From: Hyphomicrobiales bacterium
GTDB taxonomy: Bacteria > Pseudomonadota > Alphaproteobacteria > Rhizobiales > MH13
Length of the DNA stretch: 64,000 nucleotides
Reading direction: 5' to 3'
Assembly: GCA_017642935.1 (NCBI GenBank)
Contig: JAEPOK010000001.1
Location: 620,001-684,000, forward strand
This document shows, one piece after another, positions 38,588 through 46,105 of this stretch. The notes under the pieces are model-generated. The model was not told the DNA's origin and searched no databases. It worked only from the letters and a program-made list of their open reading frames with translations. Within the stretch, counting starts at the first letter, position 1, and the number at the start of each line of letters is the position of its first letter. Both the position numbers and the translations under genes were made by a program.

Positions 38588-40123
38588 CTAAAGGTCCAAC
38601 TCCAGTTGGTTGGCCGGTTTCTTCTTCACCCAAGCGCGCCCTTGTTTTGGTGTGTGGCGCGAGGACTTGCGCGAACCATGTTTTAAGTAGATGGCGCGTT
38701 GATGCTGGTAAAACCCATCGCTGGCGCGGATGCGGGTGAGGCGCTCTCGGGCAGCACGTGCAGCTTCTTGATGGTCGATGATCGGAGCTGGGTAGGATTC
38801 GTCGAGAACAAAGCCCTGTTCACGTGCTTCCAGCGGCGAAAGTGTCCAGGGTTCATGAACCGCGCGACCCGTGAGCTGGCTTAGCTCGGGTACCCACCGC
38901 TTGATAAACAATCCGTCAGGGTCTTGGTCATGGCCTTGCTTGACTGGATTGTAGAGCCGCGGTGTGTTGATTGCGGTCGAACCTGACTGCATCTGAACCT
39001 GCGGCCAGTGAATGCCGGGCTCGTAGTCGGTGAAAAGTTGCGCCAGCCGCGTGCCGGTGGCCCGCCAATCAAGCCAAAGATGGTAGCTGGCAAACGCGAC
39101 CAACATCGCGCGCATACGGAAATTGATCCAACCGGTCGCGATCAGAGAGCGCATGCAGGCATCAACGAACGGAAAACCGGTGTTGCCAATCGCCCAGGCT
39201 TCAAAAAGCGGATCTCCGACACCTTTCGTGCGCGCCTCACGAAAGGCTGGGTGCAGATCGCGCCACTCCATCTCCGGTTCGCTTTCAAACTTTTGGATGA
39301 AGTGGCAGTGCCAGTGCAGTCGTGCGATGAAAGCGTTGAGGCCACGGGGCGGGATCGGCTGATGGTCTGGCGGTACAGTCTTCAGCGCACGCAAGTCGTT
39401 GTAGGCGCGCTGCACAACCTCGCGCATTGAGAGCGTGCCATAGGCAAGGTGAGGGGAAAGCCGAGAACAGGCGTCAGCCGCACTGATTGGGCTCGACATC
39501 GCGCGTTGATAGTGTCGCGCCCGGCCTGATGTCAAAAAGCTTTCAAAGAGCGCAAGACCCCGAGCGCGGCCGCCGCGCTGTCGCTGCGGGCAGGGATCAT
39601 CGACAAGGCCCAGATCGTCCAGGCTTGGCAATGGTTCACTTGTCGCATCGGCGTAGGTAATGGTGTCAGGCAGTGTGGCAAGTGGCTCAGCCATGAAGGC
39701 TTCCCACTGCCGCGCCCAGCGATCGCGGTTGATCGGGCCTCGCACCACGCCAAACTGCCTGATTTGCGTCCAACCGATGCCCATTCCGTGGCACCAGCGT
39801 GCAACGGCTTTGTCGCGTTCATAGGTCCAGGCATTGCCCGTTTCCTCATGCGACCAGATGTGGCGAATGCCATGGCTTTCATGGAGCGCGTTGAGGATGG
39901 CCGTGATCTTGCCGATCCGTACGCAGAGCGGAACGCCCTGCGTTCGCAGATCATCGACGCTCTCGCGCCAAAAAAGATAATGCCGCGAAGAGGTTTCAGG
40001 CAGTTCCCAATAATCTGATTCAACCGCAACAAGCGGCAAAACGGGGCCGTTTTGTGCCGCCATCGCCAAGGGGGCATGGTCAGCGGCACGCAGGTCGCGT
40101 TTGAACCAAACAAGCTCGATCAT
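38588..40123 (-). CDS. Photolyase/cryptochrome family flavoprotein
   Basis: The 511-residue product has the photolyase N-terminal antenna domain (about 1-140, starting [15 protein letters not shown]) and a C-terminal FAD domain with [33 protein letters not shown] and [23 protein letters not shown] split over the FAD pocket. Such proteins repair UV pyrimidine dimers or act as light sensors; which applies here is open. A basic C-terminal tail ([20 protein letters not shown]) could aid DNA binding. It is divergent from the iron-sulfur photolyase at 40222. Confidence 0.9.
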
Positions 40124-40221
40124 TGGGGTTGAACTGACTCCCTGCGCCCTAGGTGGGAGCTAATCTAAGGCGTCGCGCGCCTATCGCCAGCGTACCGGCC
40201 ATCACAAACTGCAGGTGTTTT

Positions 40222-41745
40222 ATGCCCACACTCCGTCTCGTGCTCGGTGACCAGCTTTCCATGAGCCTTTCGTCGCTCGCTGATTGGCAAGGGGGGGACA
40301 CAATCCTGATGTGCGAGGTGATGGAGGAGGCCAGTTATGTGCCCCATCACAAGAAGAAGCTTGCCTTTGTATTTTCGGCGATGCGCCACTTTGCCGAGGC
40401 GCTGGAATCCTCAGGTAAGGCCGTGCGGTACGTGCAGCTCGATGATCCGGACAATTCGGGTGGCTTTGCCGGTGAGCTCCAGCGTGCATTGGCCGCCGGC
40501 GATTACGACCGCGTTGTGATCACTGAGCCTGGCGAATGGCGGGTGATGGAGATGATCCATAGCTGGCAGGACAGCTTGGATGTTCCGGTGATCGTGCGCG
40601 AGGACACCCGGTTTTTCGCAAGCCTCGGTCAGTTCGAGCGATGGGCCGATGGCAAAAAGCAACTGCGCATGGAGTTTTTCTATCGCGAGATGCGCCGCGA
40701 GACCGGCTATCTGATGGACGGCGATAAACCGGAAGGCGGGCAGTGGAACTTTGACAAGGAAAACCGCCGCAAGCTGCCCAAAGATGTGGCGTTGCCGGAT
40801 CGGCTGAAGTTTGAGCCTGACGCGATCACGCACGAGGTACTGAAGCTGGTGAACGCGCGCTTCTCAGACAATTTCGGTGACTTGGAACCGTTCGACATGC
40901 CGGTGACCCGGGATCAGGCGCTTGGGGTGCTCGACCATTTCATCGATACCTGTTTGCCGCAGTTTGGCGACTATCAAGATGCGTTGGTGGAGGGCGAGGC
41001 CTTTTTGTTCCATTCCACCATCTCGGCAGTCATGAACGTCGGCTTGCTTTTGCCGAAAGAGGCCTGTGACGCCGCGCAGGCGGCGTATGACGTGGGTTCC
41101 GCGCCGCTTAACGCCGTTGAAGGGTTCATCCGGCAGATCCTTGGCTGGCGGGAATATGTGCGCGGCCTCTATTGGCTGAAAATGCCGGACTACAAGATGC
41201 TCAACGCCTTAGACGCCGATCGCCCGCTGCCGGACTTTTTTTGGACCGGTGACACCGACATGGCGTGTTTGGCCGATGCCATCGCGACCACGAAGACGCA
41301 CGCCTACGCCCACCACATTCAACGGCTGATGATCACCGGAAATTTCGCGCTGCTCGCCGGGATTGCGCCGGGCGCTATCAACGAGTGGTACATGGTTGTC
41401 TATGCCGACGCCTATGAGTGGGTTGAGCTGCCCAACACCCACGGCATGGCTATCTTTGCCGATGGCGGGATTATGGCCTCCAAGCCCTACGCTGCCTCCG
41501 GCGCCTATATCGACCGCATGAGCGATCATTGCGCTGGGTGCCGGTACAAGGTGAAGGAGAAAAACGGACCTGATGCCTGCCCGTTCAACTATCTTTATTG
41601 GGACTTCATCATCCGCAATGCGGACCACCTTCGAGCCAATCCAAGGATGGGCATGATCTATCGTTCGTTAGAAAGAACGAGCGATGAACGCCGCGCTGCT
41701 ATCAAAAGTGACGCTGAGTCATTTTTTAAGAAACTGTTTAGCTAG
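40222..41745 (+). CDS. phrB: Iron-sulfur (6-4) photolyase, PhrB/FeS-BCP type
   Basis: From ATG 40222 the product is 507 residues. It has the FeS-BCP domain order: N-terminal antenna domain (TLRLVLGDQLSMSL start), a middle helical region, and a C-terminal FAD region with four cysteines at residues 349, 437, 440 and 453 (CAGC and CPFNYLYWDF motifs). Agrobacterium PhrB uses Cys350, 438, 441 and 454 for its [4Fe-4S] cluster, so the spacing is the same, shifted by one. PhrB repairs (6-4) photoproducts. It is divergent from another photolyase-like gene, 98 bp apart. Confidence 0.94.
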   Translation: MPTLRLVLGDQLSMSLSSLADWQGGDTILMCEVMEEASYVPHHKKKLAFVFSAMRHFAEALESSGKAVRYVQLDDPDNSGGFAGELQRALAAGDYDRVVITEPGEWRVMEMIHSWQDSLDVPVIVREDTRFFASLGQFERWADGKKQLRMEFFYREMRRETGYLMDGDKPEGGQWNFDKENRRKLPKDVALPDRLKFEPDAITHEVLKLVNARFSDNFGDLEPFDMPVTRDQALGVLDHFIDTCLPQFGDYQDALVEGEAFLFHSTISAVMNVGLLLPKEACDAAQAAYDVGSAPLNAVEGFIRQILGWREYVRGLYWLKMPDYKMLNALDADRPLPDFFWTGDTDMACLADAIATTKTHAYAHHIQRLMITGNFALLAGIAPGAINEWYMVVYADAYEWVELPNTHGMAIFADGGIMASKPYAASGAYIDRMSDHCAGCRYKVKEKNGPDACPFNYLYWDFIIRNADHLRANPRMGMIYRSLERTSDERRAAIKSDAESFFKKLFS

Positions 41746-41770: not shown

Positions 41771-42520
41771 TTAATCATTCGATTCAAGATAGGGTGGTTT
41801 TGGGATCGATTGATGCGCTGACCTTAGGGCAGCTGACCATCGCTCCTGCAGATCGTGGAAGTAGGGTTCGCCATGTTCGATGCGGGTCGATAGAGAGGCC
41901 TGTATCGCGTCGCGGCGGATCGCCCAGAGGTCGATCGGCATGCCCACGCCAAGGTTGGAGCGCATGGTGGAATCCATCGAGATTAGGCCTATCTTCACCG
42001 CATCCGACAGGTTGGTCTGAAACGTGATCGCGCGGTCGAGGATGGGCTTGCCATATTTGTGTTCCCCTATTTGCAGGTAGGGCGTGTCTTCCGTCGCTTC
42101 GATGAAGTTACCTGCCGCGTAGACCATGAAGAGGCGCAAGCGGCCGCCCTTAACCTGTCCGCCGACCAGCATGGTGACGTCAAAGGCGGCGCCCATGCCC
42201 TGCGAACTGCCATTGTTCATCCGCATGACCTCGCCAATCGCGCGGCCGACGTAACTTGCGGTCAGAAACATGGTGGGATGATCGTAGATCGTTTCCAGCA
42301 TGCCGGTTTGCGGGTTTTCAAACCCATCGGACATGATGGACATAACCGCCTGGCTGACGGCCAAATTGCCGGCAGTGGCAATGGCAATGCTGCGCTCGCC
42401 TGGCTGCTCAAAGCGATAGAGCTTTTGAAAAGTCGCGATGTTGTCGAGCCCGGCATTGGTACGGGTGTCGGCGATCATCACCAAGCCCTCTTCGACCAAG
42501 AGGCCAACGCAATAGGTCAA
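41771..42520 (-). CDS. Anbu (ancestral beta subunit) proteasome-like protein
   Basis: The 249-residue product is an Ntn-hydrolase of the Anbu family, related to 20S proteasome beta subunits and HslV. It starts MTY, so after removal of Met the Thr would be residue 1, the expected nucleophile; Asp (in ADTRTN) and Lys (in TFQKLY) match the proteasome-type Asp17 and Lys32-33. There is no propeptide. It is the last gene of an operon with ATP-grasp, alpha-E and transglutaminase-like genes. Anbu peptidase activity is poorly established, so the biochemical role is open. Confidence 0.93.
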   Translation of the reverse strand: MTYCVGLLVEEGLVMIADTRTNAGLDNIATFQKLYRFEQPGERSIAIATAGNLAVSQAVMSIMSDGFENPQTGMLETIYDHPTMFLTASYVGRAIGEVMRMNNGSSQGMGAAFDVTMLVGGQVKGGRLRLFMVYAAGNFIEATEDTPYLQIGEHKYGKPILDRAITFQTNLSDAVKIGLISMDSTMRSNLGVGMPIDLWAIRRDAIQASLSTRIEHGEPYFHDLQERWSAALRSAHQSIPKPPYLESND

Positions 42521-42590: not shown

Positions 42591-43526
42591 TTAGCCTCCT
42601 ACGCGGCGCACGGCAATGCTGGTTTCGCGCTCAAAATCGCTCATCCCGCCATAATGCCCAACTCTTGCACTTGCGATGCCGTGCTGGTCGAGACCGATGG
42701 CGACGCGCACACTGTCTTCGCTTGGGCAATTGCCCTGGCTCGGGTCGAAGGCCACCCATCCCAGATCGCCTATGTGGGCTTCAGCCCAGATGTCGCGTTG
42801 GTCTTGGCTCGCATCCTTGCCGTGCCAGCGATAGCCGGACACAAGGCGAGCCGGCAAGCCAAGGCGTCGCGCTGTGTTGCAGAAGATATCGGCCAAATCG
42901 CCTGCCTCGCGGATTTTCTTTTCCGCCAGCATGTCGCGCAGGCGGGAGGAGGCTGAGGATTTCAGTGCCACGTCTTCGGCGTCACCGGCGGTCTGTTGTT
43001 GTTGGCTATGTGAGCCACCCATCTGCGCTTGAGCTTGTGCCTGTTCGTGGGCCTGCTCATGGGAATTGTCTGTGTCTTCATCGTCATCGCCATTGGGTCG
43101 GGCTGCATGCAGCACGGCCATCAGGGCATGCATCTGGGCAAGCTCAGGGCCCGTAACGTCGGCGAGTGCGTTGATCGCTGTGCGAACCAACGCCGCATCG
43201 CTTTCGGAGTGGCTTGGCCGCAGGAAAACGCCATGCGGGACTTTGTCTGGCGCGCCGCGCACGATGCCGTGCGTTTCCTCGGTTTCGATCTCGCCAACAG
43301 CGCTGATCGTTAACTCGTCCAGCGGACCATTGAGCGAGAAACTGGTGACGATGTTGCCAAAAGCGTCCTTGTGGCTCTCAATCTTGCAATCGGCATCCAC
43401 ATCCACCGTCCAATCGCAAACATAGTGGCCGGTGTGGTCGCGCGGCGTCAGCCGGAGCACCTGAATGGTGCCCATGCTCGGCGTTGCATAGGTGAGGGTT
43501 TCGGTGTGGCGGACGGATAAACGCAT
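42591..43526 (-). CDS. Transglutaminase-like protein of the Anbu operon, catalytic Cys and His missing
   Basis: The 311-residue product has the N-terminal beta domain (about 1-100) and a transglutaminase-like core (about 110-311). Family members in Anbu operons carry GVCQD-AH and HAWAE, giving Cys and His, plus Asp in WVGFDP. Here the aligned segments read REAGDLAD (Ala208 in place of Cys, Asp213 in place of His), DIWAEAH (Asp245 in place of His) and WVAFDP (Asp261 kept). Translation at codons 42905-42903 and 42794-42792 confirms Ala and Asp. A Gln/His/Ala-rich insert (about 146-180) sits before the core. It is probably a pseudoenzyme or a scaffold. Confidence 0.9.
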   Translation of the reverse strand: MRLSVRHTETLTYATPSMGTIQVLRLTPRDHTGHYVCDWTVDVDADCKIESHKDAFGNIVTSFSLNGPLDELTISAVGEIETEETHGIVRGAPDKVPHGVFLRPSHSESDAALVRTAINALADVTGPELAQMHALMAVLHAARPNGDDDEDTDNSHEQAHEQAQAQAQMGGSHSQQQQTAGDAEDVALKSSASSRLRDMLAEKKIREAGDLADIFCNTARRLGLPARLVSGYRWHGKDASQDQRDIWAEAHIGDLGWVAFDPSQGNCPSEDSVRVAIGLDQHGIASARVGHYGGMSDFERETSIAVRRVGG

Positions 43527-43552: not shown

Positions 43553-44497
43553 TTAGAACAGATATTGCTCGGCGATCGTGGCGCCCAGCTTGTTGTTCTT
43601 GCTGATAAAATCTTCAACGAACTCGTGCAGACCGGCCTGGAAGATCGCGTCGATATCGCGGTTGCGGAACTCGCTGTGGATCGATCTGGCCATGCGCTGG
43701 GCCTTGCCTTGCCGGCCATAGGTCTTCGACAAGCTGTCGAGATACCGCGTGACGTTGCCGTAGGAGCTTGCCAGAGAGCGCGGCATTTTTTCGTTCAAGA
43801 TCAAAAGGTCGGCGATGAGCCAAGGTTTGAGGCTCTCGCGGTACACCCAGTGATAGGCGGTCAGCGCCGATACGGAGCGCAGGATGGACGTCCACTGGAA
43901 GTAATCGAGCCCGCCGCCAACACGGTCACCGGCGGGCAAGAGCACATGATATTTCACGTCCAAAATGCGCGCCGTGTTGTCGGCGCGTTCAATGGCGCCG
44001 CCAAGCTGGAAGAACGAAAAGCCGTCGGTGCGCAGCATCGTGCGGTGGGCGATCCCATCGACGCTGAGCGCGACCTGTTTGACGAACCGCAGAAACTCCA
44101 AAAGCTCGCCGCGCGACTGTCCAAAGGTGCGATAGCGTTTGAGCTCGAGCCAGGCAGCGTTGATCGTCTCCCACATTTCGATAGTGATCGCGGTGCGCAC
44201 TGAGCGCGCATTGGCCCGCGCTGCCTCCAAGCAAGAGCGGATCGACGAGGGATTGGCCTCGGAAAAAGCGAGGAAGTCGACGACGGTGCGGGCCGTTGGC
44301 TCGCCATAGCGCTCCTCGAATAGCTCTTCCATGCCGGTGGCCAGCACGGCTGATTCCCATTCGTTGGAAACCTGTTCCTGGCTGCCGCCAACATTTGAAA
44401 GCCGCGTGGCGGCCTCCAAAAGGCGGGCGGTGTTTTCTGCGCGTTCGATGTAGCGTGCCGTCCAGAAGAGACTGTCGGCTGTTCGACTAAGTAGCAT
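43553..44497 (-). CDS. Alpha-E domain protein of the Anbu operon
   Basis: The 314-residue product is almost all alpha-helical and matches the Alpha-E family: MLLSRTADSLFWTARYIERA at the N-terminus, and HRTMLRTDGFSFFQLGGAIERADN in the middle. The family lies beside ATP-grasp and transglutaminase genes in conserved Anbu operons. The molecular function is unknown. It starts 12 bp after the ATP-grasp gene and is followed by the transglutaminase-like gene with a 26-bp gap, so the three are almost certainly one transcript. Confidence 0.93.
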   Translation of the reverse strand: MLLSRTADSLFWTARYIERAENTARLLEAATRLSNVGGSQEQVSNEWESAVLATGMEELFEERYGEPTARTVVDFLAFSEANPSSIRSCLEAARANARSVRTAITIEMWETINAAWLELKRYRTFGQSRGELLEFLRFVKQVALSVDGIAHRTMLRTDGFSFFQLGGAIERADNTARILDVKYHVLLPAGDRVGGGLDYFQWTSILRSVSALTAYHWVYRESLKPWLIADLLILNEKMPRSLASSYGNVTRYLDSLSKTYGRQGKAQRMARSIHSEFRNRDIDAIFQAGLHEFVEDFISKNNKLGATIAEQYLF

Positions 44498-44508: not shown

Positions 44509-45924
44509 CTATCGTGCCAAGATCCAGGTGTCTTTTGTTCCCCCGCCTTGCGAGGAGTTCACGACCAGCGATCCCTCCTTCAAGGCAACGCGGGTCAGAC
44601 CGCCTGGCACGATGCGCACACCGTTGGTGCCGGAAAGGACGAATGGCCGAAGGTCCACATGGCGTGGTGCGACACCTTCGCCGACGAACGTCGGGCAGGT
44701 GGAGAGAGCCAGGGTCGGCTGGGCGATGAAATCGTCCGGATTGGCCTTCAGCTTGGCGCGGAAGATATCGATCTCGTCTTTCGTCGATCGTGGTCCGACC
44801 AGCATGCCATAGCCACCAGAACCGGCGACTTCCTTCACCACGAGCTCTTCGAGATGGTCGAGCACATAGGACAAAGCCTCCGGCTCGCGACAGCGCCAGG
44901 TGGGCACGTTTTTGAGCATCGGCTCTTCTTCAAGGAAGAACTTCGTCAGCTCCGGCATGTAGGTGTAAATCGCCTTATCGTCGGAGATGCCCGTGCCGAC
45001 GGCGTTGGCGAGCGTGACGTTTCCGGCGAGATAAGCCGTCATCAGGCCTGGGACGCCGAGCATGGAATCGGGATTGAAGACCAGCGGGTCGATGAAATCA
45101 TCATCGATGCGTCGGTAAATGACATCAACTCGCTGCGGCCCAAGCGTTGTGCGCATGTAGAGCACAGCGTCGCGCACGAAGAGGTCGCGCCCCTCGACGA
45201 GCTCAATGCCGAGCTTGTCGGCCAGAAAGGAATGCTCGTAATAGGCGCTGTTGAACGGACCAGGCGTTAGCAGCGCACAGGTCGGCTCTTTGTTGGCATT
45301 GCGGGGCGCCACCGATTGCAGGGCCTGCAACAATTCATCGCCGTAATTGTCGACTGGCTCGACGGCATGGTCGTAAAACACTTCCGGCGCGATGCGCATC
45401 ATCACCTCGCGGTTCTCCATCATGTAGGAGACCCCGGAGGGCGTGCGGGCATTGTCTTCCAGCACATAGAAGTTGTCAGAATCAACGCGGACGATATCGA
45501 CACCGGCAATGTTCACCCAGATATTGCCGGGCAGTTTAGCCCCGATCATTTCTGGGCGGTATTGCGGGTTCTGATCGATGAGGTCAGCTGGAATGATGCC
45601 GGCCTTGATGCATTCGCGTGGCCCGTAAATGTCGGCCAGAAAGGCGTTGAGCGTGTTGACCCGTTGGGTCAGGCCCTTTTCCAGCTGCAGCCATTCGTCA
45701 TGGGCAATGATGCGCGGGATGAGATCGAAGGGGATGAGCCGCTCTTCGGCGTCTGCTTCGCCATACACTGCGAAGGTAATCCCAATGCGGCGGAAAAGCA
45801 TCTCGGCTTCTGCGCTCTGGCGTTTCAGTGCTTCTGGATCAAGGCTATCGAGCCACGTTCGCACCATCTCATAGGGTGCACGGCATTGGCTGCCGTCCAC
45901 GCTCATCTCATCAAATGCTGTCAT
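44509..45924 (-). CDS. Circularly permuted ATP-grasp protein of the Anbu operon
   Basis: From ATG 45924 the product is 471 residues. It matches the circularly permuted ATP-grasp type 2 family (COG2308): ADIYGPRECIKAGIIPADLI, FYVLEDNARTPSGVSYMMEN, SVAPRNANKEPTC and a later EVAGSGGYGMLVGP segment. Family members are predicted ATP-dependent ligases, probably making amide or peptide bonds. AAAGGGG lies upstream of the ATG. The 32-residue upstream frame has no similarity. It heads the Anbu operon. Confidence 0.94.
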   Translation of the reverse strand: MTAFDEMSVDGSQCRAPYEMVRTWLDSLDPEALKRQSAEAEMLFRRIGITFAVYGEADAEERLIPFDLIPRIIAHDEWLQLEKGLTQRVNTLNAFLADIYGPRECIKAGIIPADLIDQNPQYRPEMIGAKLPGNIWVNIAGVDIVRVDSDNFYVLEDNARTPSGVSYMMENREVMMRIAPEVFYDHAVEPVDNYGDELLQALQSVAPRNANKEPTCALLTPGPFNSAYYEHSFLADKLGIELVEGRDLFVRDAVLYMRTTLGPQRVDVIYRRIDDDFIDPLVFNPDSMLGVPGLMTAYLAGNVTLANAVGTGISDDKAIYTYMPELTKFFLEEEPMLKNVPTWRCREPEALSYVLDHLEELVVKEVAGSGGYGMLVGPRSTKDEIDIFRAKLKANPDDFIAQPTLALSTCPTFVGEGVAPRHVDLRPFVLSGTNGVRIVPGGLTRVALKEGSLVVNSSQGGGTKDTWILAR

Positions 45925-46105
45925 TGCGCCCCTTTTTGGCGCCTTGGCTACCGGTAACCGGCACCTTGGCGGTTGGAATGAATATCGCGCGCGACGTGCC
46001 GCTCTCCGATGAGAGTGCAGCATGATCTAACGGCTAAGTAAACGCGCAACTGTTGGTCGAGCCAACGCATGACGCAGCGTTCGGTTCCGAAAAAAGACTG
46101 AAAAA

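Follow-up and report, generated by a model that had tools for sequence, protein, structure and literature searches.

The Anbu operon has been described as a group of four genes encoding the proteasome-like subunit Anbu, a transglutaminase-like protein, an Alpha-E protein and a circularly permuted (CP) ATP-grasp protein (PMC6376114, PMC5666114). In PMC6376114 the transglutaminase is counted among the amide-bond-forming proteins of the operon, and the proposal made there for the operon leans on the transglutaminase and the ATP-grasp both making amide bonds. The same paper describes a pull-down with the Yersinia bercovieri proteins, in which specific binding among the operon proteins could not be demonstrated and the transglutaminase bound to the beads. 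In Pseudomonas putida, nitrogen limitation raises Anbu (PMC5666114). A cluster in Burkholderia cenocepacia, containing DUF404/407, DUF403, transglutaminase-like and large transglutaminase-like genes, is reported to be targeted by both NtrC and sigma54 (PMC5491218). Inactive transglutaminase domains are known from other settings. RloB of Pseudomonas aeruginosa carries such a domain and is encoded with the ATP-grasp protein RloC and a peptidase, and strains lacking the Rlo peptidases are relieved of their defects when either RloB or RloC is mutated (PMC12239564). Among eukaryotic proteins, inactive transglutaminase-like domains are found in EPB42, the Rad4 family and FBXO21, the Rad4 family using theirs for DNA binding (PMC10318531). 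No report of Anbu-operon transglutaminases without the catalytic Cys was found in the open-access literature searched, a scope outside which most subscription journals fall.

The window (the whole stretch of DNA that was analysed, 64,000 nucleotides from a Hyphomicrobiales bacterium) contained a complete Anbu operon on one strand, with the CP-ATP-grasp, Alpha-E, transglutaminase-like and Anbu genes all in open frames (Table 1). These are the same four genes, with matching Pfam families, as those of the operon in the published descriptions (PMC6376114, PMC5666114), from which the window differs in having a transglutaminase without the catalytic Cys and His. An earlier sequence-only reading of this DNA had described the operon as otherwise intact and in frame, which agrees with the four open frames and with the retention of the catalytic residues of Anbu. 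The CP_ATPgrasp_2 match began at residue 103, and the real start of this protein may lie downstream of the ORF start. The window copy of Anbu was the only Anbu match in the genome. The transglutaminase-like ORF had no internal stops and contained, besides the N-terminal domain, a Transglut_core match over the Pfam cut-off at residues 196-262 (E 2.4e-10). Its two domains, together with a position between Alpha-E and Anbu and with the CP-ATP-grasp gene upstream, identify the product as an Anbu-operon transglutaminase-like protein. Compared by description, RloB resembles it in placing an apparently inactive transglutaminase domain beside an ATP-grasp protein, but is a membrane protein with a periplasmic domain, and its operon encodes an aspartic peptidase instead of Anbu (PMC12239564). 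The likeness to EPB42, the Rad4 family and FBXO21, again by description, is confined to a domain kept without activity, the contexts being unrelated (PMC10318531).

Table 1. Features of the Anbu operon, of its transglutaminase-like protein and of neighbouring and paralogous loci.
Feature	Coordinates	Strand	Details and basis
CP-ATP-grasp protein, first operon gene	44509..46023	-	Pfam CP_ATPgrasp_2, E 5.3e-165
Alpha-E protein	43553..44497	-	Pfam Alpha-E, E 2.4e-96
Transglutaminase-like protein, catalytic Cys and His lost	42591..43526	-	311 aa; ORF, Pfam, family alignment
Bact_transglu_N domain, residues 3-81	43284..43520	-	Pfam, E 4.2e-18, over cut-off
Variable low-complexity linker, ~residues 142-195, Ala/Gln/Asp/Ser-rich	42942..43103	-	Sequence and alignment
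Ala208, codon GCA, catalytic Cys column	42903..42905	-	Family alignment; codon read
Asp213, codon GAT, column of the family's AH His	42888..42890	-	Alignment; codon read
Asp245, codon GAC, catalytic His column	42792..42794	-	Alignment; codon read
Asp261, codon GAC, third triad residue, kept	42744..42746	-	Alignment; codon read
Anbu proteasome-like subunit, TTG start, Thr1/Asp17/Lys32 kept	41771..42520	-	Pfam Proteasome; alignment
Photolyase-type gene	38588-40123	-	
Photolyase-type gene	40153-41745	+	
Second locus: fused ATP-grasp/Alpha-E, intact small transglutaminase, transglutaminase-DUF2126 (putative amidoligase domain)	contig C1 ~558-567 kb, window's genome		

The catalytic columns of the transglutaminase were assigned using the family alignment. 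In all 103 rows bearing the Cys, column 245 was His and column 261 was Asp, and 96% of these rows had His at column 213; because these rows were uniform at 245 and 261, the two columns were identified as the family's catalytic columns. Profile alignment to the solved relative 3isr, from Cytophaga hutchinsonii, paired GVCQD with GVCRD, HAW with HAC and GWVGFDP with NWIIFDA. The Cys, His and Asp residues aligned in this way are what we take to be the triad of the transglutaminase superfamily. The residues and codons of the window protein, in agreement with the family alignment, bear out the report of the sequence-only reading that positions 208, 213 and 245 are replaced and that Asp261 is kept; column 261 was Asp in all Cys-bearing rows and in 53/53 scored rows without the Cys. 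Of the residues of an active transglutaminase or Cys protease, the protein retains the Asp and lacks both the Cys and the His, a double replacement that would rule out the usual Cys chemistry, as that reading had also concluded. An AlphaFold model of the protein, built on a two-row alignment, had a mean pLDDT of 47 and is of low confidence; the top Foldseek match of this low-confidence model was 3isr (E 1.6e-6), with TM-scores of ~0.3.

Two simpler explanations of the missing nucleophile were rejected. Misalignment was discarded because several independent lineages have a single replacement within an otherwise intact GV-C-QD motif (GVGQD, GVAQD, GTAQD, GIPQD), and because the window stretch before Cys216 holds no alternative Cys nearby. 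Cys216 itself, which the sequence-only reading had named as a possible active-site Cys, was discarded as a substitute nucleophile because its column is not conserved, reading C, C, C and A within the genus (four members), with V in the sister genus.

The gene was present in all four members of the window's genus that were examined (window included), one of the copies being divided over two contigs, and no stops were found inside the frames of these copies or in that of the sister genus. The Ala/Asp/Asp combination proposed as a possible shared signature of close relatives was not shared by them, column 208 being A/E/A/P and column 213 D/A/R/M across the genus, and only Asp245 was fixed (4/4). 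The one member of the sister genus had Glu at the Cys column and retained the His. The window protein and its nearest relative were 58% identical, compared with 94% for the Alpha-E and ATP-grasp proteins of the same pair. In the window protein the linker replaces the TTAAEAF..GV segment that precedes the Cys in intact relatives.

It is conceivable that the protein is still an enzyme whose chemistry now rests on another residue; Cys267 might serve as the nucleophile, for instance, or Asp245 as the acid/base. Cys267 is Cys in 5/5 members of the window's family, and among Cys-less rows its column is 92% Cys and 8% Ser; all four genus members have Asp245, His133 is invariant in a 56-row alignment and His291 is common to the genus. 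However, the Cys267 column is 76% Cys and 18% Ser in the Cys-bearing relatives also, and did not covary with the loss of the catalytic Cys (independent pairs: 2.4 with and 1.0 against, of 10). Against a role for the other residues, His133 is also present in intact members, His291 is missing from the sister genus and His245 has been replaced by different residues (R, W, C, A) in other lineages. Position 208 is not fixed, and an active site rebuilt on Ala208 and Asp213 is unsupported, neither residue being conserved within the genus. A new chemistry of this kind is considered very unlikely.

The occurrence of the Cys-less state across the order was examined in operon regions, for which 280 of 397 genomes gave matches; 157 regions were taken among the matches listed, with better-scoring matches over-represented. 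Addition of the window, L037 and L038 gave 160 rows, with a transglutaminase in 160, Alpha-E in 158, ATP-grasp in 155 and Anbu in 132. The residue tables omit three truncated transglutaminases (L038, L070 and L224) and one with an odd frame (L202), leaving 156 scored rows, and the tree tests used the 152 scored rows with both partner genes. The catalytic Cys was present in 103/156 scored Anbu-type transglutaminases and absent in 53/156, a proportion that is not an estimate for the order given the over-representation of better-scoring matches. The 53 Cys-less rows had Ala (19), Pro (17), Ser (8), Val (3), Glu (2), Thr (2) or Gly (2) at the Cys column. The His column of the 156 rows was H 142, A 6, D 4, R 2, C 1 and W 1, the His being absent in 13/152 tree rows. 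One Cys-less row, L141 (genome G323), carried Thr in place of the catalytic Cys and a Cys in place of the His.

Mapping on a tree of Alpha-E and ATP-grasp (153 rows, 794 columns) gave 13 changes of state for the Cys and 4 for the His. Rooting of this partner-gene tree resolved the 13 changes as one-way losses of the Cys, the direction being given by the deep branches, which all carry Cys, His and Asp except L223. Four other trees gave 12, 13, 13 and 11 losses, and the supported branches alone gave 10 independent pairs for the Cys state. The Cys-less state has been carried through long divergence, for example in a 12-row clade within one family. On these reconstructions the window case is one among about a dozen independent losses and no lone oddity. 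The catalytic residues of Anbu were unaffected, Thr1/Asp17/Lys32 being kept in 39/39 readable Cys-less and 91/91 Cys-bearing operons with Anbu in the region. Outside the order the triad was kept in 48/50 of the Anbu-locus transglutaminases read, a figure that leaves uncounted the 27/95 Anbu loci without a transglutaminase in the stretch examined.

The sequence-only reading had suggested looking for an intact transglutaminase elsewhere in the genome. The window's genome contained four other Transglut_core matches over the cut-off and has other, intact transglutaminases. One of these lay in a second ATP-grasp/Alpha-E locus (Table 1), adjacent to the fused ATP-grasp/Alpha-E gene and close to the transglutaminase-DUF2126 gene. 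This locus has ATP-grasp, Alpha-E and transglutaminase domains paralogous to those of the Anbu operon in the same genome, but differs from the operon in the fusion of ATP-grasp to Alpha-E and in the intact triad; it consists of the same kinds of gene as the B. cenocepacia cluster as described in PMC5491218. The Alpha-E copy number was searched in all 156 scored genomes (155 others and the window's own), and two copies were found in 51/53 Cys-less compared with 64/103 Cys-bearing genomes. Of the two Cys-less exceptions, G002 is a 78%-complete assembly, and G323 is a fragmented assembly in which the second-locus transglutaminase was still found, at a contig edge. A second-locus transglutaminase was recovered at E <1e-57 in 39/40 of the Cys-less genomes searched, and the Cys-His-Asp triad was intact in all 31 that were read (30 and the window's own).

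All 13 Cys losses were reconstructed on two-copy branches, where 47% were expected from branch length (P 0.0001) and 67% from branch count (P 0.005). In the 136-row ingroup without the deep outgroups 12/12 losses fell on two-copy branches, with 59% and 73% expected by length and count (P 0.001 and 0.021, respectively). An independent-pairs test of the second locus against Cys loss pointed in the same direction as the branch tests and was not significant (2.6 pairs agreeing, 0 disagreeing and 7.4 showing no difference, median p 0.25). Genome size or completeness is a possible confounder here.

The association bears on the reading in which the Cys was never strictly needed in this order, the protein having always been a scaffold or peptide holder for which catalysis was optional and the second locus irrelevant. 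Such a history would suit the frequency of Cys loss in the order, the unchanged catalytic residues of Anbu alongside it and an invariant core common to Cys-less and Cys-bearing members. It accords poorly with the triad retained in other orders, and with His245, Asp261 and Glu297, which are without exception in the Cys-bearing rows, a sign of selected catalysis where it is present. The absence of any loss reconstructed on a one-copy branch is a further point against it, and we consider it highly improbable.

The selection acting on the protein was estimated with a codon model. The core gave an omega of 0.064-0.078 in five other Cys-less clades and of 0.023-0.094 in seven Cys-bearing clades. The estimates for the window's genus were 0.168 for the core and 0.092 for the N domain, with 0.025-0.040 for the three partner genes. 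These values are well below 1, indicating that selection is still purifying, and among the residues invariant in the 53 Cys-less rows are Trp247, Glu249, Gly256, Trp257 and Asp261. A pseudogene was rejected, as the frames are open and omega is not near 1. The combination of lost catalytic residues and purifying selection on the gene is that expected of a pseudoenzyme. The view of the sequence-only reading that the loss of the triad is not simple decay is upheld by the open frames in relatives, the low omega, the invariant residues and the intact operon.

The protein is nevertheless constrained more loosely, most of all in the window's genus. For pairs with partner identities of 93-96% the median transglutaminase identity was 0.865 in Cys-less compared with 0.904 in Cys-bearing pairs, and at 75-80% partner identity the medians were 0.477 and 0.601. 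The window's genus was the most divergent, with a transglutaminase identity of 0.579 at a partner identity of 0.937. Pairwise NG86 dN/dS was put aside in favour of the codon-model omega as it was near saturation; its medians at dS 0.05-1.2, 0.653 for 1115 Cys-less pairs and 0.528 for 4037 Cys-bearing pairs, are read with that limit and also indicate looser constraint in the Cys-less members, in agreement with the other measures. Two further positions were less often kept without the Cys, Tyr281 in 83/100 Cys-bearing compared with 9/52 Cys-less rows and Glu297 in 100/100 compared with 24/52, and paired tests of their loss with the Cys were not significant (median p 0.125 and 0.25, respectively).

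The main rival to the pseudoenzyme reading is a slow decay, in which the second locus makes the Anbu-locus transglutaminase redundant and the gene is gradually being lost, with its frame perhaps preserved for the translation of its neighbours. This fits the fast evolution in the window's genus, where identity is lowest for the partner divergence, the core omega exceeds that of the partner genes and a variable linker now stands where the segment preceding the Cys used to be; the lower identity of Cys-less pairs at equal partner divergence is in line with it more widely. Against it, omega is still far from 1, the Cys-less state persists over long divergence and a number of residues do not vary at all across the 53 rows. 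Broken frames were seen in 0/53 scored Cys-less rows, a count that falls short of a census because scoring started from open frames; L202, the only odd frame among the 160 rows, comes with a split ATP-grasp gene. The divergence in the window's genus can be read equally as weakening constraint or as a new role. Weighing these points, we regard slow decay as rather unlikely.

The window protein is probably a pseudo-transglutaminase with a binding or structural role, and the loss of its catalytic residues was probably tolerated thanks to the intact second locus. From comparative sequence data we infer its inactivity, a binding partner and compensation by the second locus. The Anbu-operon transglutaminase would have turned into a pseudoenzyme where a paralogous active locus was already present, the loss of the Cys being tolerated, on this inference, because the second ATP-grasp/Alpha-E locus supplies an intact transglutaminase in the same genomes. 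Within the Anbu, ATP-grasp and Alpha-E system the pseudo-transglutaminase would persist as a subunit for binding or structure, its target perhaps a partner or the peptide made by the ATP-grasp enzyme. The second-locus transglutaminase would carry out the chemistry, or those steps of the pathway that depend on it. A more elaborate form of this idea makes the two operons one divided system, in which the Anbu-side transglutaminase is, in many Hyphomicrobiales, a dedicated non-catalytic partner of a second locus giving the chemistry in trans, and a peptide or tag attached by that second locus is bound, delivered or removed on the Anbu side; we consider this unlikely. If about a dozen losses of the nucleophile have indeed occurred while the Anbu catalytic residues were kept, models that need transglutaminase catalysis inside the operon are too simple. 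The link to the second locus, a kind of locus that is under nitrogen control elsewhere, opens a direct genetic test.

Anbu was missing from 28 of the regions, and 18 of these were followed, 16 genomes having Anbu elsewhere. For the other two, G254 (L197) and G009 (L223), no Anbu was found, while the ATP-grasp, Alpha-E and Cys-less transglutaminase were all kept, so the role of the transglutaminase need not involve Anbu everywhere. In another Cys-less operon, L144 (G357), Anbu was present in two overlapping frames, representing a frameshift or an assembly error.

Glutamine-alternating tracts such as QSQSQ, QVQVQ and QAQRQSQ recur in the family. C-terminal tails of the QxQxQ/QQQ type were observed in 43/103 Cys-bearing compared with 8/53 Cys-less rows, and independent pairs gave no trend of tail with Cys loss (1.7 with, 2.0 against). 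A QxQxQ/QQQ tract is present in the linker of all four members of the window's genus (window residues ~155-178), where it is internal and precedes the lost Cys, as it does in the separately Cys-less L223. The recurrent tracts possibly represent a self-substrate or a docking peptide.

The Anbu operon of the window is adjoined by a divergent pair of photolyase-type genes (Table 1), with matches to the DNA_photolyase/FAD_binding_7 and DPRP families.
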